From Sulfurovum lithotrophicum (GTDB taxonomy: Bacteria > Campylobacterota > Campylobacteria > Campylobacterales > Sulfurovaceae): 64,000 bases of DNA. The DNA lies in contig NZ_CP011308.1 in NCBI RefSeq assembly GCF_000987835.1, positions 868,001 through 932,000 on the forward strand, given 5' to 3'. A program made the position numbers and the translations under genes. How positions within the stretch are numbered: position 1 is the first letter of the stretch; every line of letters begins with the position of its first letter. This document shows positions 41,191-50,648 of the stretch, piece after piece. The notes below the pieces were generated by a model. That model ran no database searches. It was not told the origin of the DNA and saw only the letters and a program-made list of their open reading frames with translations.

Positions 41191-41595
41191 ATGAAAGTAG
41201 TAACCGGAGTAGTGGGGAACGATATCCATGTCGTTGCCAACAGGCTGATTGATATTTCGTTGGAAGAGCGCGGGTTTGAAGTCTTCAATTTAGGGGTGAA
41301 TACCTACCTTGAAGAGTTTATGGATGCGGTGATAGAGACCGATGCAGATGTACTTCTGATCTCTTCTCTCAATGGGGAGGCGGAAGGGTGGTGCCGTGAC
41401 CTGAAGATACTCAAAAGCCAGTACGATTTCAAGGATGTGGTTTTTATGATAGGCGGGAATCTCGGTGTGGGAGAAATGGATCCTGAACTGATCGTTCCGA
41501 AGTTTCAGAACTACGGCTTTGATCTGGTCTTTCACCAGGTCGATCTCAATGAGGGGCTCGATCAGCTCGAAGCCGCATTGGAGGCACGCAAATGA
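41191..41595 (+). CDS. glmS: Glutamate mutase, cobalamin-binding subunit
   Basis: 134 residues, the small S (sigma) subunit of methylaspartate mutase, which binds coenzyme B12. D11-I-H13 gives the ligand histidine of the DxHxxG motif, but the final glycine is alanine (DIHVVA). SSLNG and MIGGNLGVG complete the nucleotide-loop pocket. The enzyme turns L-glutamate into (2S,3S)-3-methylaspartate. Its stop TGA overlaps the next ATG (ATGA), so the subunits are co-translated. Confidence 0.88.
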   Translation: MKVVTGVVGNDIHVVANRLIDISLEERGFEVFNLGVNTYLEEFMDAVIETDADVLLISSLNGEAEGWCRDLKILKSQYDFKDVVFMIGGNLGVGEMDPELIVPKFQNYGFDLVFHQVDLNEGLDQLEAALEARK

Positions 41596-42953
41596 GTCTG
41601 TTACAGCGTGAACGTGAGATCATCGTCAACAATGAGTATATAGACCGTTTCGATTTTGAAGAGGTGGAAGAGTTCATCAGGGGTGCGAGTAAGAACCTGT
41701 TCATCTCCCACAAGTTCAAGACAGCCGACCACATGCTGGTGCAGCCGCGCGGAGGGTTCCCGACCTACGACAAAGTCTTTCAGCTTTACAAAGAGTTTAA
41801 AGAGGCCAATGTCGATGTACTTCCCCTGACCATCGATTCCAATACCCGTCTGAATGACTATGCTTCGGCGAAGAAGATGCTGGCACTCTCTGAAGAGAAC
41901 GATGTCGATATGCTCAACGGCTACCCTCTGGTGAACCACGGATATCGTACCACAAGGAAAATGATCACGCATTATGATACGCCTGTCAGTCTGCGTCATG
42001 GTACGCCGGATGCACGCCTGCTGGTCGAAACGGCCCTGGCATCGGGGATATTTGAGATCGAGGGCGGGCCTATTACCTACCTTCTTCCGTATTCCAAAAA
42101 CTTCCCCATGGACAAAGCTTTTCTCTACTGGAAATACGTTGAGAGAGTCTGTGCAAAATACTCTGAACTCAATGAGCCGATCAACCGTGAATCTTTCGGT
42201 CCGCTCTCTGCTACGCTTCAACCGCCGGCCATCGTCATCGTCATCCAGCTCTTGGAGATGCTGCTCTCTCTTGAAGAAGGTGTAAAGTCCTTCTCTGTGA
42301 GTTTTTCCCAGACAGGTTCCATGCTGCAGGACATCGTCTCTTCGAATGTCATCAAGAAGCTTGCCCGCAAGTATGCTGACAGGTTCGGACATGAAGATGC
42401 GACGATCAATCTCGTCTATCACCAGTGGATGGGGGCTTTCCCGAGGAACAAAGAGTACTCCGATTCACTTATCAACACTTCGACCGTGATCGCTGCGATG
42501 GTCGGGGCTGACAAGATCATCACCAAGACACGGAACGAAGCTTTCGGTATCCCGACCAAAGAGGCCAATGCCATGGCGGTCGCCAATGTGAAATATACCC
42601 TGGGTATGCTCAAAGGCTTGCCGACGGTCGGCGATGAGGAAGAGGAAGAGAATCTGACTAACGAAGTCGACGAGATCCTTGAAGCGGTATTCAATGACGG
42701 GGCGGATACGCTTTGGAGAAAGGTCTTCAACTCCATTAAAAAAGGGTACATAGATATTCCTTTCTCACCGCATATCATCAATGCGAATGAAGTGATCACC
42801 ATCCGTGACCCGCAGAGTAATATCCGTATTCTGAAAAAAGGAAAACTGCCTATTTCGGAAAAGAGTTTCGCCTATGAACGCTCGAAGATAAAACTGGCCG
42901 AGGGAGAACGCGTGGTGGACAAGATCATTCAGGATATAGGGATCATGCTATGA
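41592..42953 (+). CDS. glmE: Glutamate mutase, catalytic subunit
   Basis: 453 residues, the E (epsilon) subunit with a TIM-barrel for the radical rearrangement. Diagnostic segments are QPRGGFPTYDK, LVNHGYRTTRK, SLRHGTPDARLL, GGPITYLLPYSKNFPM and INRESFGPLSATLQPP. The length is slightly under the usual 480. It ends in ATGA overlap with the next gene. The electrostatic pocket for glutamate looks intact, so activity is likely. Confidence 0.88.
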   Translation: MSLLQREREIIVNNEYIDRFDFEEVEEFIRGASKNLFISHKFKTADHMLVQPRGGFPTYDKVFQLYKEFKEANVDVLPLTIDSNTRLNDYASAKKMLALSEENDVDMLNGYPLVNHGYRTTRKMITHYDTPVSLRHGTPDARLLVETALASGIFEIEGGPITYLLPYSKNFPMDKAFLYWKYVERVCAKYSELNEPINRESFGPLSATLQPPAIVIVIQLLEMLLSLEEGVKSFSVSFSQTGSMLQDIVSSNVIKKLARKYADRFGHEDATINLVYHQWMGAFPRNKEYSDSLINTSTVIAAMVGADKIITKTRNEAFGIPTKEANAMAVANVKYTLGMLKGLPTVGDEEEEENLTNEVDEILEAVFNDGADTLWRKVFNSIKKGYIDIPFSPHIINANEVITIRDPQSNIRILKKGKLPISEKSFAYERSKIKLAEGERVVDKIIQDIGIML

Positions 42954-44143
42954 GTAGTAAATTAATGATAGATATAGGCAGTACCTATTTCAAAGTGGCC
43001 CAGGAAGGAGAGATCGAGCAGTATTTCAGAGATTTCAACAAAAATATCTTTGATGATCTCAGCAGCAAGTGTGCCAGCCTTATAGAACAGTATAGTGAGG
43101 AAAATATTCATATCTGCTCTTCTGCCAACGGTGGCTTGAGTACGCTGATCATCGGGCTGACAAACTCTTTCAGTCTGAAGTATGCCATCAACATTGCATT
43201 CAATTCGGGGATCAACATCATCGATACGGTACTGTATCCAAAGATAGAGCAGGAACCCGTACCGACAGAGATGATCGACGTCGTTATCATAGTAGGGGGC
43301 ATAGACAGCGTTGAAAACGTGTTTGATGAAAAGCTCCTGGACTATCTGGACAGAGTGAATTATCAGAATATCGTCTATGTGGGAACGAAAAAAAGTACCC
43401 CTTTCCTGCAGGAGAACATCGAAAACATAGTGGTACTTGAGAATGTCATCTCTGACAAGCTCAAGATCCAGGAAGAAGCGCTGAAAACCTATCTGACCGA
43501 TCTCTATCAGGCAGATATCATGGGGAAAGAGGATATCAAGCAGCTCTATGGGATCACAACCAACCAGATCTTCTCTACACCCTACATCGTTAACCGTTCG
43601 CTTTCAGAGATCAGTGAACATATGGATGTAGCCGATCCGTTCATCGTTGTGGATATCGGCGGGGCGACCACGGACATCCACTACAGCCGTGACCTGGTCA
43701 ACGACAATATTCTGACCGATAGCGGTTATGACAGACTGGTCTTCAAGAAACTGGGTGTCTTCAAATCTCGTGAAAGTCTGGTACATACAGCTAAGAACAA
43801 TGAGTTCGTTTTCGAGCTTCTGGAGCATTTGAACGTCACGGAGAACATCCTGGAAGAGTACAGCGAAAAGGCCACACGCACTTTGATGCAGCTGGCGATC
43901 TTCCTCGTACTGTACAAAGTCTCCAAGCACCATGCTTCCTACATAGAACTGAATCTGGAGATCCTCAACAGTATCGTGCTTACCGGTGGTATCACCAAGG
44001 TACTGACGCAGGAAGAAGTGGATGACATCATTCTTTTCTTTTACAAGAAGATCCTTCATTTCCACCATGCCCCCAAAATTCTGCTTGATCAAAATTATGA
44101 GATCTGGACCTATGGTATTACAGGAAGTTCCCTAAAGGAGTAG
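42950..44143 (+). CDS. glmL: GlmL/MutL-type reactivating ATPase for the mutase
   Basis: 397 residues of the actin/hexokinase-like ATPase family (MIDIGSTYFKVA near the N-terminus, VVDIGGATTDIHYS near residue 225, ILNSIVLTGGITKVL near the C-terminus). It is expected to exchange damaged cobalamin in glutamate mutase. It sits between glmE and the ligase, with a 2-bp gap to the latter. Confidence 0.82.
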   Translation: MSSKLMIDIGSTYFKVAQEGEIEQYFRDFNKNIFDDLSSKCASLIEQYSEENIHICSSANGGLSTLIIGLTNSFSLKYAINIAFNSGINIIDTVLYPKIEQEPVPTEMIDVVIIVGGIDSVENVFDEKLLDYLDRVNYQNIVYVGTKKSTPFLQENIENIVVLENVISDKLKIQEEALKTYLTDLYQADIMGKEDIKQLYGITTNQIFSTPYIVNRSLSEISEHMDVADPFIVVDIGGATTDIHYSRDLVNDNILTDSGYDRLVFKKLGVFKSRESLVHTAKNNEFVFELLEHLNVTENILEEYSEKATRTLMQLAIFLVLYKVSKHHASYIELNLEILNSIVLTGGITKVLTQEEVDDIILFFYKKILHFHHAPKILLDQNYEIWTYGITGSSLKE

Positions 44144-44145
44144 TC

Positions 44146-45714
44146 ATGTCAGTGAACAGTATTCGAAATCTATTGGAGATCGCAGCTCAGAGTGAGCCTG
44201 AAAAGATCGGGCTCAGACACGGCCATGAACAGTACAGCTATGCACAGCTCATCAAAAAGGTCGATCAGATCGCCCATTACCTTGCGACACTGGGCCTGAA
44301 AAAAGGCAGCCGGATAGGCATTTACTCGAACAAACGCGCCGAACAGGTCATCGCCATACTTGCGGTACTCTCCACTGAGTATGTCTTTGTGCCTATCACG
44401 AGGCTGCTCAAACCCGAGCAGATCCAGCACATCATCGATGACTGTAATATTTCCTGTATCATTACCGACAAGGTCAAAATAGAAAACATCAAAGCGATAA
44501 ACTTTGGAGGAAAGATCATCTCCTATGAAGCCAGTGAGCAGAGTGATGTCTCTTTTGAAGAGATATACAAATGCTACACCGCTGAGGTAAAATGTGATGT
44601 TAAAGGGCATGACAACGCCGTCATTACCTACAGCTTCGGCTCTTCGGGAAACCCCAGGGGAATCGTCATAGACCACCGCGCCCTGACCGATGGAGCGAGG
44701 ATCGTCTCAAAGTATTTGAACATTCAAAAAGAGGATGTCATTTCAGGTATCCTCTCGTTCAATCTCGACTACGGTTTGAACCAGATCTTCACGACACTCT
44801 ATAAAAAAGCGACACTGGCGATCCATAAGTTTGTCCTTCCGGCAGACTTCTTCTCACACCTGATCGATGAGAACATCACGGTACTGCCGTTGATGCCTAT
44901 ACACATTACCCAAATGTTCGATGAAGACCCGCACCGCATCCCGCAGCCGGAACATTTCAGAAACCTTAGAGCGATCACCTCTTCAGGCGGTAACATCACC
45001 CCATTGATGGTCAAGAACATCACGACGCATTTCCCCGATACGGCATTCTACTCCATGCACGGTTTGACAGAAGCATTCCGTTCAGCATACCTGGACCCTT
45101 CCCAGATACATATACGCCCCAATTCCATAGGAAAGGCGATCCCCGATGTGGAGATCTTCATCATCAACGAGGAGGGGGAAGCGTGTAAGCCAAGAGAGGT
45201 AGGTGAGCTGATCCATCGCGGCGCCTGCATCTACAAAGGGTACTGGAATGCACCCGATGAGACGGCAAAACGTTTCAAGAGTATTCATATTCTGGACAAG
45301 GTACTGCACCCTGAGGGGCAGCTGACCGATGAGATCGTCATTGCCAGCGGCGATTATGTTTACGCCGATGAAGAGGGGTATATCTATTTCGTTTCACGCA
45401 AGGACGACATGATAAAAACCCAGGGCTTCCGTGTCAGTCCCCATGAGATAGAGAGTGTGGTCTATGCCAATATAGAAGAGATAACGGAGTGCGCGGTCTT
45501 TTCCATTCCCAACGAGCAGATCGAAGAGGAGATCGTAATGGTCTACGGCGCTAAGCGTGAACTGGCCAAGAACGAGATACTCTTCGAGCTCAAAAAGCAC
45601 CTGCCGAACTATATGCTCCCCGCACAGATCGTTTACAAAAAGAGTATGCCGCTGAAGTCACTGCACGACAAGGTCATCGACAAAGAGGTACTCAGAAAAG
45701 AGTTCCTCATTTAA
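44146..45714 (+). CDS. AMP-forming acyl/amino-acyl ligase
   Basis: 522 residues of the ANL superfamily. ATP-binding core TYSFGSSGNPRGIVIDHRAL, substrate-pocket segment SFNLDYGLNQ, adenine motif SMHGLTEAF, and ASGDYVYADEEGYIYFVSRKDDMIKTQGFRVSPHEIE. The C-terminal catalytic lysine is in SLHDKVIDKEVL. The DYGLNQ segment is like that of the exosortase-associated acyl-CoA ligases. Its substrate is not readable from sequence. Given the operon, an attractive idea is activation of 3-methylaspartate or of an acid condensed with it, but no carrier protein or condensation enzyme is present. Confidence 0.75.
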   Translation: MSVNSIRNLLEIAAQSEPEKIGLRHGHEQYSYAQLIKKVDQIAHYLATLGLKKGSRIGIYSNKRAEQVIAILAVLSTEYVFVPITRLLKPEQIQHIIDDCNISCIITDKVKIENIKAINFGGKIISYEASEQSDVSFEEIYKCYTAEVKCDVKGHDNAVITYSFGSSGNPRGIVIDHRALTDGARIVSKYLNIQKEDVISGILSFNLDYGLNQIFTTLYKKATLAIHKFVLPADFFSHLIDENITVLPLMPIHITQMFDEDPHRIPQPEHFRNLRAITSSGGNITPLMVKNITTHFPDTAFYSMHGLTEAFRSAYLDPSQIHIRPNSIGKAIPDVEIFIINEEGEACKPREVGELIHRGACIYKGYWNAPDETAKRFKSIHILDKVLHPEGQLTDEIVIASGDYVYADEEGYIYFVSRKDDMIKTQGFRVSPHEIESVVYANIEEITECAVFSIPNEQIEEEIVMVYGAKRELAKNEILFELKKHLPNYMLPAQIVYKKSMPLKSLHDKVIDKEVLRKEFLI

Positions 45715-45724
45715 AAGAGGGAAA

Positions 45725-46360
45725 GTGGAAGAATATCACTATACAGCCAGGATATACGACCGGCTTCTCGGGCCTTTTATCAAGCCTATCAGAAGAAGTG
45801 TGTTGTCACTGGTCAAAAAATACAAGTATACTTATATCCTCGATGTCTGCTGCGGTACGGGTGACCAGCTGAAACTTCTTGGCAAGCATGGGTTTTACGG
45901 GGAGGGGATAGACCTTTCTGCTGCGATGCTGGAAGTTGCCGGAACCGGAGAACATAAAGCCAACTGTATACAGCAGGATGCCACACAGATGCATTATGAA
46001 GATGCCAAGTTCGACCTGGCGATGACCGCTTTTGCCCTGCATGAAAAAGACCATACCTCTGCCCGGAAGATTGTCGAGGAGATGGTACGCGTAACAAAAG
46101 AGGGCGGTGACATTCTCATTGTAGATTACGAACTGAGTGAAAAAACATCCCTATTCTCAAAATGGATGATCTACTTTATCGAGTGGATCGCGGGTGGGGA
46201 ACACTACCGGAACTTCAAGTCCTACATCCGAAAAGGCGGACTACCCGAACTTCTGTCGGGTATTGAACTGAGAGAAATAGAACGGTATTATTTTGGCCGG
46301 CATGGTATTGTGCTGGTTCTTTATCGTAAGAAGGTGTGCTGTTGCACACCCTACGCGTAA
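45725..46360 (+). CDS. Class I SAM-dependent methyltransferase
   Basis: 211 residues. SAM-binding motif I ILDVCCGTGDQL (near residue 38), motif II region EGIDLSAAML and DLAMTAFALHEKDH. The start is GTG 45725 behind AGAGGGAAA, 10 bp after the ligase stop, so the operon is five genes long. The last eight residues (VCCCTPYA) are read from a REP palindrome (46333-46354). The ancestral C-terminus was probably longer or ended earlier. The substrate is unknown; it may modify a product of the mutase/ligase pathway. Confidence 0.75.
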   Translation: MEEYHYTARIYDRLLGPFIKPIRRSVLSLVKKYKYTYILDVCCGTGDQLKLLGKHGFYGEGIDLSAAMLEVAGTGEHKANCIQQDATQMHYEDAKFDLAMTAFALHEKDHTSARKIVEEMVRVTKEGGDILIVDYELSEKTSLFSKWMIYFIEWIAGGEHYRNFKSYIRKGGLPELLSGIELREIERYYFGRHGIVLVLYRKKVCCCTPYA

Positions 46361-46422
46361 CCGATATGTATAGCAATTTGATATCCGCAATGATATTGTT
46401 GCAGGGTGTGCAACAGCACACC
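46333..46422. repeat. Inverted pair of REP elements (BIME), copy A
   Basis: Left REP GGTGTGCTGTTGCACACC then CTAC (46333-46354). Right REP GCAG then GGTGTGCAACAGCACACC (46401-46422). They are joined by a linker (GCGTAACCGATATGTATAGC...GATATCC) that recurs at 49953-49990. This makes a BIME-like unit of about 90 bp. Confidence 0.7.
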
Positions 46423-46837: not shown

Positions 46838-48652
46838 ATGTATTTAAAACATATGGCTATTAAAAATATTGGACCAATTTCAGAATTAAATATTGAATTA
46901 CCATTTAATGATGATGGCAATCCTAAACCTATAATTTTTGTAGGTGAAAATGGAGCAGGGAAAACTATTATGCTATCTCAAATTATTGATAGTTTCTATG
47001 AAATAGGTGGTGCAGCATTTAATGATATTAAAGTTTCTCAGGGAATGGGACATAAATATTATAAAGTTTCTGGTGCAGTAAATATACAAATTGGAAAGGA
47101 TAAAGGTTTTTCAGCTTTACAATTTTTAGATAGTACTAATAAAATTGAATACTTAGATAAGGTAGGAGAAATTGCAGATGAACCAAAAACTTATATTTCA
47201 AACTTTACACTTACATCTATGACAAAAGAAAATGAAAAAAAAGTTACTAGTTTAAATGATGAAAATAAAAAAGATTTAGAAAGTAATTGGCTCAATGGAG
47301 TTTATTTTTATCAGCCTGCTTATAGATATGAAGAACCATTTTGGAAAGTAGATGAATTTAGACATGATGAAAGATTTATGGACTCTACTAGATATAGAGG
47401 AGAATTAAGAAAAGAGATAGAAATTATATCTTCAAATAATGAAAATAAACAGTTTGTATTAGATTTAATTTTAGATTATATATTAAGTCAAAATTCAATC
47501 CAATCTTTAATAGGTAGTAATGCTGAGGAAAGTCTTAAAGATCCAAATATTTTATTGCAAGTACAAACTAAGGTTTTTGATATAACACTTTGGACAAATA
47601 TTAATGAAATTTTGAGAAAAGTTAAAGATAATGAACATATTGAGTTTCAAATAGGACAAAGAGGAAAAAATAGAGTTAGTATTTTAGATAAAGAAACAAA
47701 TACTTTATTGCCAATAAGTAACCTTTCTTTGGGTGAATCAGTTTTGTTGAACCTATTTATAAATATAGTAAGACATGCATGTCAATATAATTCTAAATCT
47801 TTAAATGAAATAGTAGGTATTGTAGCTATTGATGAGATAGATATACATTTGCATACAAATTTACAAAGTAAAGTACTACCACAACTCATAAAACTATTTC
47901 CAAAAGTACAATTTATTATTACAAGTCATTCTCCTCTATTTTTACTTGGTATGGAGAGAGAATTTGGAGTAGATGGTGTTGAGATTCGAAATATGCCAAA
48001 TGGAGAGCTTATTACTACAGAAAGGTTTGTTGAGTTTGAAAATGCTTATAAGGTTTTAAAAGAGACTGAAAGATATGAAAATGAAATAAAAGAACAAATC
48101 AAAAATAGTACAAAGCCATTAGTTTTTGTAGAGGGTGACTATGACATTAAATATATTAAAAAAGCAGCTGAATTATTTGATAAAAAAGATTTAATTGAAA
48201 AGGTTAAATTTATTGATGCTGATGGTTATCAAAACTTAAATAAAATTTGGAAACATAATACAAATCTTTTACAAGCCATCCCTCAAGAGATGCTTCTTCT
48301 TTATGATTGTGATACAAAGGTTGAGAATAAAACTAACGATAGAGTTTTTAAAAGAATTATTCCATACATGAAAGAAAATTATTTCGATAGAGGTATTGAA
48401 AATTTATTTTCAGAAAGTACTATTGAAAAAGTAATGAAAGTAGAGAAAACCTATATTGATGTTACTGATGAAATAAAAAAAACAGTAAGAGGTAAAGAGA
48501 TAGTCGAATCCAAAAGATATGATATAAATCCTGATGAAAAAGGAAATTTATGTACTTGGTTATGCACTAATGGAGATAAAGATGATTTCAAAAACTTTGA
48601 TAAAGTATTTAAGATATTTGAAGAGTTTTTAAAAGAGGAAAATAGTGAATAA
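46838..48652 (+). CDS. AAA ATPase with TOPRIM-like C-terminus (OLD/PARIS-like)
   Basis: 604 residues, AT-rich. Walker A GENGAGKT (residues about 35-42), coiled insert, ABC-like signature NLSLGESVLL and Walker B IVAIDEIDIHLH, then ITSHSPLFLLG. The C-terminal part (KPLVFVEGDYDIKYIKKA with the TOPRIM glutamate, and LLLYDCDTK for the DxD) is like OLD nucleases and DUF4435 of AriB. Such fused or paired proteins are antiviral nucleases. The start ATG 46838 follows AAAGGATG. The Fic gene overlaps its end by 8 bp, so the two are a pair. Confidence 0.75.
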   Translation: MYLKHMAIKNIGPISELNIELPFNDDGNPKPIIFVGENGAGKTIMLSQIIDSFYEIGGAAFNDIKVSQGMGHKYYKVSGAVNIQIGKDKGFSALQFLDSTNKIEYLDKVGEIADEPKTYISNFTLTSMTKENEKKVTSLNDENKKDLESNWLNGVYFYQPAYRYEEPFWKVDEFRHDERFMDSTRYRGELRKEIEIISSNNENKQFVLDLILDYILSQNSIQSLIGSNAEESLKDPNILLQVQTKVFDITLWTNINEILRKVKDNEHIEFQIGQRGKNRVSILDKETNTLLPISNLSLGESVLLNLFINIVRHACQYNSKSLNEIVGIVAIDEIDIHLHTNLQSKVLPQLIKLFPKVQFIITSHSPLFLLGMEREFGVDGVEIRNMPNGELITTERFVEFENAYKVLKETERYENEIKEQIKNSTKPLVFVEGDYDIKYIKKAAELFDKKDLIEKVKFIDADGYQNLNKIWKHNTNLLQAIPQEMLLLYDCDTKVENKTNDRVFKRIIPYMKENYFDRGIENLFSESTIEKVMKVEKTYIDVTDEIKKTVRGKEIVESKRYDINPDEKGNLCTWLCTNGDKDDFKNFDKVFKIFEEFLKEENSE

Positions 48653-49707
48653 TTTACAAAATTTAACTAATATTGAAACCCAAAAAGTCCTCAAAAAAAC
48701 CATCTCAGCCAACCGTGCATTAGCAAAACTAAATGGAGTAGCACAGATCATCCCAAATCAGAACATCCTCATCAATTCTTTGGTGCTTCAGGAAGCAAAA
48801 GACTCTTCGGAGATAGAGAATATTATCACTACGCATGATGAGCTGTTTCGGGCAGGGCTTGACATCGCTTCGGTGACGAATGAGACTAAAGAGGTGCAGC
48901 CATTATAGAGAGGCGTTGCTCAAGGGGTATGAGCTGGTGCGGGATACCGGGCTTTTACTCAAGCGGGATATTGTCACTATTCAAAAGATATTGGAACAGA
49001 ATGATGCTGGGGTTAGGCGGCAGAGTGGGACGACTTTGAAAAATGCTGCAACTGGTGAAGTAGTATTTACACCGCCGCAGGAGTATGAACTCATAGAAGA
49101 ACTGCTGACAAATCTCGAACAGTACATCAATGAACCTAACGATCTCGATCCGCTTGTCAATATGGCGATCATCCACTATCAGTTTGAGAGTATTCACCCG
49201 TTTTATGACGGTAACGGCAGGACGGGAAGGATCATCAATATCTTGTACCTCATACTCAAAGAGCTGTTGGACATCCCCATCTTGTATCTTAGTTCTTACA
49301 TCATCCGAAACAAAGCAGACTATTACCGACTGCTTCAGGAAGTGCGAACCAAAGAGAACTGGGAAGAGTGGATACTCTATATGCTTGACGGCGTAGAGCA
49401 GACTTCACTGGTGACGATAGAGCTGGTTAATGATATTCACACGCTCATGGGTGAGACGAAAGAGAAGATAAGAGCAGAACTGCCGAAGATCTACAGTAAA
49501 GATCTCGTCGAAATACTTTTTATGCACCCTTATACGAAAATAGATTTTTTGGTAGATGGACTGGGTGTATATCGAGATACTGCCGGAAGATATTTGAAGA
49601 AATTAGAGGTATTGGGTATTGTTGAAGAGGTCAAGATTAAAAACAGCAAATTTTTTATTAATACTAAACTTTTTGAAAGATTAGAAAAAGGTTTAATGAT
49701 ACAATAG
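48645..49707 (+). pseudogene. Fic-domain protein, split by a +1 frameshift
   Basis: Class II Fic AMP-transferase. Frame one begins GTG 48645 and carries the N-terminal inhibitory motif SSEIEN (48801-48818). At 48900-48901 one extra C turns the expected KEVQHYREALL into KEVQPL-stop at 48908. The second frame continues with HYREALLKGYELV and holds the catalytic motif HPFYDGNGRTGR (49195-49230), then a winged-helix-like C-terminus to 49707. Without the extra C the protein would be about 354 residues, the usual length. Pseudogene, sequencing error and programmed slip are all possible. It overlaps the AAA gene by 8 bp. Confidence 0.8.
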
Positions 49708-49867: not shown

Positions 49868-50020
49868 GGTGTGCAATTGCACACCCTACGCGTATCGAAT
49901 ATTTGCGGTGATGCAATGTAGCGATAAAACCCCCAACAAATTGCACATCCTACGCGTACCGAATATGTATAAAGCAATCTAATATCCAAAACCAAACTGG
50001 AGGGTGTGCATTGGCACACC
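49868..50020. repeat. REP cluster upstream of the transposase (BIME copy B)
   Basis: Three elements: GGTGTGCAATTGCACACC then CTAC (49868-49889), a half REP TTGCACATCCTAC (49941-49953), and GGAG then GGTGTGCATTGGCACACC (49999-50020). The linker from 49953 (GCGTACCGAATATGTATAAA...) matches BIME copy A. Confidence 0.7.
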
Positions 50021-50579: not shown

Positions 50580-50648
50580 GGTGTGCAATAGCACACCGAT
50601 TAAAATATAAAATCTAATGTGTGGAAGGTGTGCTGTTGCACACCCTAC
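50576..50648. repeat. Inverted REP pair downstream of the transposase
   Basis: GTAG then GGTGTGCAATAGCACACC (50576-50597), and in the opposite sense GGTGTGCTGTTGCACACC then CTAC (50627-50648). They form an inverted pair abutting the transposase gene. Confidence 0.75.

Follow-up and report, generated by a model that had tools for sequence, protein, structure and literature searches.

What becomes of 3-methylaspartate in a bacterium that has a complete glutamate mutase and lacks methylaspartate ammonia-lyase is the question raised by an operon of Sulfurovum lithotrophicum. Amino-acid fermentation, the methylaspartate cycle and a few antibiotic clusters are the settings in which glutamate mutase, the source of this rare amino acid, is known to occur. 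The operon lies in a 64,000 nt stretch, here called the window, of the complete 2,217,891-base genome (contig NZ_CP011308.1, positions 868,001 to 932,000), and all coordinates below are window positions unless stated otherwise. An earlier note on this DNA had described GlmS, GlmE and GlmL as fused into an ATGA-coupled operon with an AMP ligase and a methyltransferase, and had suggested a new small-molecule or cofactor pathway. The reading that we favour, with slightly less than even confidence, is that GlmS, GlmE, GlmL, a protein of the ANL superfamily and an RraA-type protein make up a dedicated, non-fermentative 3-methylaspartate module.

The five open reading frames of the operon are all on the forward strand and match the expected families. 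They encode GlmS, the B12-binding subunit of glutamate mutase (41191–41595), GlmE, the catalytic subunit (41592–42953), a short form of the GlmL/MutL-type reactivating factor (42950–44143), the ANL-superfamily protein (44146–45714) and a class I S-adenosylmethionine (SAM) methyltransferase (45725–46360). ATGA overlaps at the GlmS/GlmE and GlmE/GlmL junctions indicate that these genes are coupled, but they are not fused; gaps of 2 and 10 nt separate GlmL from the ANL gene and the ANL gene from that of the methyltransferase. No Rfam RNA was found near the operon. The membership of the set needed correction, as the methyltransferase drops out (see below) and the fifth partner, which had been overlooked, is the RraA-type gene (PF03737; 40514–40996, reverse strand) that is divergent from glmS.

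GlmE matches PF06368 at 395 bits, far over the cut-off, and falls just under that of TIGR01503 (378.8 versus 390.1 bits). In an alignment to PDB entries 1cb7 and 6h9e, its residues R53, R86, R135, E157, Y163, Y167, K312 and E316 correspond to R66, R100, R149, E171, Y177, Y181, K326 and E330 of the Clostridium cochlearium enzyme, which we take to be substrate and catalytic residues, and all eight positions are kept across an 80-sequence alignment. GlmS scores over the cut-off of NF002612 and under that of TIGR01501. Alignment to 1be1 and 1cb7 revealed that the Asp and His of its B12 loop are present and that Ala replaces Gly (DxHxxA for DxHxxG). This substitution, previously raised as a possible defect, is real, but the alanine is conserved throughout the lineage (70 homologues), so that it is more likely a lineage mark than damage, and loss of function by this route is not supported. 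GlmL exceeds the PF13941 cut-off, with the models specific to GlmL under theirs, and its ATPase motifs are conserved. As the active site of GlmE is complete, the mutase looks active on sequence grounds, and 3-methylaspartate is very likely made from glutamate. The system shares its subunits and catalytic residues with the Clostridium GlmS/GlmE (PDB 1cb7, 1ccw, 1i9c, 6h9e) and GlmL, and differs from it in the altered GlmS loop, in belonging to a separate clade and in having no ammonia-lyase gene next to it.

The absence of the lyase extends to the whole genome. No methylaspartate ammonia-lyase was found in the complete chromosome, where the best match (25.6 bits, under the cut-off) is a dipeptide-epimerase-like gene of the enolase superfamily, and TIGR01502 was over its cut-off in none of 57 GlmE-positive Campylobacterota genomes. 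On plasmids of Rhizobium and Gemmobacter, by contrast, genes for the lyase and for CoA enzymes come after GlmE; GlmE of S. lithotrophicum is at most 39% identical to the plasmid-borne proteins.

To define the module, gene neighbourhoods were surveyed in Sulfurovaceae loci and in 80 named loci (the best 80 of 214), on which any statement about occurrence outside Campylobacterota rests, and co-occurrence was scored in 397 near-complete Campylobacterota genomes and in 150 genomes of the same family. The core across the neighbourhoods is GlmS-GlmE-GlmL-ANL, and an RraA-type gene, mostly divergent and adjoining GlmS, is present in 49 loci. GlmE was found in 57 of the 397 genomes. The ANL protein is encoded in 56 of these 57 and in none of the 340 GlmE-negative genomes, and the RraA-type protein in 57/57 and 3/340, respectively. 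In one of these three exceptions (L184), the RraA-type gene adjoins GlmS but GlmE is missing, which would suit a decaying module. Among the 150 family genomes, GlmE (36), ANL (33) and RraA (36) largely coincide, with the exceptions mostly in incomplete assemblies. Fisher values for the co-occurrence are approximately 1e-65 but overstate independence, because the genomes are related. In several complete chromosomes the RraA-type gene and GlmE are separated by distances from 80 kb up to several hundred kb; as they co-occur even so, the association is not merely physical. The pattern covers 20 genera of Campylobacterota, so the recurrence in relatives for which the earlier note had asked to look is confirmed for the core set, with RraA in and the methyltransferase out. 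No sixth partner was consistent across families among the neighbours of the unlinked RraA copies.

The same block was found in three gammaproteobacterial loci, from Alteromonadaceae Bs31 and from metagenome-assembled genomes (MAGs) of a Vibrio and a member of the Hahellaceae. Their GlmE proteins are 86–91% identical to one another and to that of a Sulfurimonas-labelled MAG, and horizontal transfer would be the simplest reading. Separately, two Sulfurovaceae loci (L083, L086) have GlmS-GlmE without adjoining GlmL or ANL genes, and in the corresponding genomes GlmL and ANL occur together on another contig (L208, L209). The methyltransferase is limited to the closest relatives, and in one close relative (G033) its gene is broken, with a 92 aa remnant; we conclude that it is not a member of the pathway.

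Full-length searches with the ANL protein returned adenylation domains of non-ribosomal peptide synthetases (NRPS) and VinN, and when the substrate-binding half (residues 190–345) was used alone, VinN was the sole PDB match at E<1e-6. In the biosynthesis of vicenistatin, a glutamate mutase makes (2S,3S)-3-methylaspartate and VinN loads it onto a carrier (PMC11284099), and roles have been described for its pocket residues D230, F231, S299 and R331 (PMC11253843). These align with D208, Y209 (Tyr for Phe), S280 and R312 of the ANL protein, all four of which are invariant across 54 non-redundant homologues; the position of VinN K330 is occupied by Phe or Leu. In the predicted structure (mean predicted local distance difference test score, pLDDT, 86.9), VinN with bound 3-methylaspartate shares the head of the VIA-align list with other ANL enzymes (for VinN, Z 47.1 and root-mean-square deviation 2.0 over 377 residues), and Foldseek placed GrsA first. 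Recognition of 3-methylaspartate by the ANL protein is well supported by these comparisons.

The vicenistatin branch (VinH/VinI mutase, VinN ligase, VinL carrier and VinO decarboxylase; PMC11284099) resembles the module in pairing a mutase with an ANL protein that has a 3-methylaspartate pocket. Unlike that branch, the module has no linked carrier, pyridoxal phosphate (PLP) decarboxylase or polyketide synthase; its ANL protein has an altered P-loop and lysine, and an RraA-type partner stands in place of the vicenistatin genes. The closest named profile is that of the exosortase A-associated acyl-CoA ligase, ligase_PEP_1 (TIGR03098), which the ANL protein matches at 477.9 bits, under the curated cut-off of 592.35, and with which it has the block GLTEAFRSTYLDP in common. 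In contrast to the ANL genes here, those ligase genes adjoin PLP decarboxylase and carrier genes in polysaccharide loci. PEP_1 ligases on pSymB of Sinorhizobium meliloti and in Aureimonas (L162 8013–12043; L163 6868–11789) have the pocket block GLTEAFRSTYLDP, and a carrier protein and a PLP decarboxylase are encoded with them; aspartate or another acidic amino acid might be what these ligases act on.

The RraA-type protein scores over the cut-off of NF006875, and a G-[DE]-X20-R-D motif was found in 48/48 of its homologues. The motif positions correspond to Gly-101, Arg-123 and Asp-124 of the Pseudomonas putida HMG/CHA aldolase, a member of the same PF03737 fold family as RraA, in which the Arg is catalytic, the Asp binds the metal and oxaloacetate is also decarboxylated (PMC5065237). 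RraA of Escherichia coli lacks these residues. As the protein is co-inherited with glutamate mutase and keeps the aldolase residues, it is expected to be a metal-dependent enzyme of the pyruvate-aldolase/oxaloacetate-decarboxylase type, acting on pyruvate- or oxaloacetate-like compounds, rather than a regulator of RNase E; the genetic tie to glutamate mutase sets it apart from the HMG/CHA aldolase. Such a partner points to keto-acid chemistry. In Arcobacteraceae (L170, L171, L173, L176, L178, L179 and L184), one RraA-type copy adjoins a gene for an approximately 700 aa FGE-sulfatase/DinB/methyltransferase fusion (OvoA/EgtB-like) and is also near a gamma-glutamylcyclotransferase-like gene, and the number of RraA-type copies reaches two or three in several of the genomes.

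In the pathway that we propose, GlmS and GlmE with adenosyl-B12 would convert glutamate to (2S,3S)-3-methylaspartate and GlmL would reactivate the mutase, both steps being strongly supported by the sequence. The ANL protein would then hold 3-methylaspartate in the manner of VinN, so that the beta-carboxylate lies at the catalytic centre, as the pocket comparison supports well, and would most likely activate it to be passed on to an acceptor or carrier whose gene lies elsewhere. The RraA-type protein, the third obligatory partner, probably acts on a keto acid that belongs to this pathway. The earlier proposal of a new small-molecule or cofactor pathway is upheld to the extent that the mutase is complete, the lyase is missing and the ANL pocket fits, but a part in it for the methyltransferase is not supported.

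Several observations weigh against this proposal. The P-loop of the ANL family (residues 163–168 in this protein) reads SFGxxG, and Leu, Ala, Val, Asp or Glu stand at the expected phosphate contacts. Of 53 ANL sequences, 27 have the canonical A10 lysine and six have no lysine within two positions of that site. An ordinary adenylation or AMP-forming ligase activity is thus uncertain, and of the idea that an AMP ligase activates 3-methylaspartate, the pocket is the part that stands. No VinO-like decarboxylase or dedicated carrier linked to the module was found in the conserved neighbourhood. A whole-genome check for NRPS or carrier genes returned six AMP-binding genes and one 82 aa carrier-like gene, and no link to the module was found. 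Nor does activation alone explain the role of the RraA-type protein. The carrier-like protein (G000:C1:1385827-1385988; L035 1477–1725, reverse strand) has its gene in a pyruvate-dehydrogenase-type cluster, with the E1-alpha gene on one side and the E2 gene on the other; the cluster includes an acetyl-CoA-synthetase-like gene, and one of the six AMP-binding genes is next to these pyruvate-dehydrogenase-type genes.

Of the alternatives, the supply of 2-oxobutyrate, an isoleucine precursor, survives best, and we consider it possible though rather improbable. Here, 3-methylaspartate would be transaminated to 3-methyl-oxaloacetate and this irreversibly decarboxylated by the RraA-type enzyme, with the ANL protein as a 3-methylaspartate-binding helper or regulator. 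An obligatory partner with the residues of an aldolase that decarboxylates oxaloacetate (PMC5065237) would suit this scheme, as would the aspartate/aromatic aminotransferase gene that all three gammaproteobacterial copies carry, and PMC7476758, citing Abramsky 1962, already records that 2-oxobutyrate can be reached by way of glutamate mutase. However, an IlvA-type threonine deaminase is encoded in 150/150 family genomes, module carriers included, and the route can be rejected as the sole source of 2-oxobutyrate because this gene is universal in the family. The scheme also gives the obligatory ANL protein no catalytic role and leaves its pocket unexplained.

Somewhat less probable still is that the ANL protein has ceased to adenylate and now serves as a sensor, a chaperone or a product-capture subunit for 3-methylaspartate, by which the mutase would be controlled or pulled, leaving the chemistry to the mutase and the RraA-type enzyme. 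The contrast between an invariant pocket with AMP-side residues (E309, D403, R418 and K424) and a decayed P-loop with an A10 lysine that is not fixed would be consistent with such a role, and both motifs are retained in the sister PEP_1 ligases. Against it, most ANL members have a lysine at most two positions from the canonical site, and adenylation motifs A5, A7 and A8 are intact. Ordinary methylaspartate fermentation or the methylaspartate cycle, with a lyase encoded elsewhere in the genome, is very improbable: the mutase subunits are the same and the plasmid-borne GlmE of Rhizobium and Gemmobacter does precede a lyase and CoA enzymes, but the searches described above already refute this for the known lyase family, and only a non-homologous lyase could rescue it.

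From the 3' end of the operon onwards, palindromes of the form GGTGTGC...GCACACC occur at 46333–46350, 46405–46422, 49868–49885, 50003–50020, 50580–50597 and 50627–50644 (count of 9, with 0.02 expected by chance). They surround an IS200/Y1-type transposase gene (PF01797; 50109–50579), and together these look like a repetitive extragenic palindromic (REP) element and its REP-associated tyrosine transposase (RAYT). The last residues of the methyltransferase are encoded by one inverted pair that reaches into its gene at the 3' end. Between 46838 and 49707, a gene for an AAA ATPase with distant similarity to the PtuA protein of retron Ec78 (76 bits against a cut-off of 500) is followed by a Fic gene that is split into two overlapping frames (Fic_N, 48645–48908; Fic and SoFic_C, 48880–49707). 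This region is possibly a defence island with a frameshifted Fic gene.

A search of the open-access literature for glutamate mutase in Campylobacterota found no reports. The parts of the module are known, and their combination and strict co-inheritance appear undescribed; as the mutase is co-inherited with VinN-like and RraA-type proteins in 20 genera and the lyase is missing, a pathway beyond those described in the literature searched is implied. We put at about even the chance that Campylobacterota and some marine gammaproteobacteria have an as yet unrecognised pathway in which B12 glutamate mutase, a VinN-like 3-methylaspartate protein whose ATP chemistry is altered and an RraA-type aldolase lead to a new metabolite or cofactor or to 2-oxobutyrate. 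Chemistry mainly of fermenters and antibiotic producers thereby appears in marine sulphur bacteria. The module also offers a genetic way in to the function of those RraA-family proteins that keep the aldolase residues, and the route from glutamate mutase to 2-oxobutyrate, long on record, may find its genes here. As cultured Sulfurospirillum and Arcobacter-type strains carry it, the module is testable.

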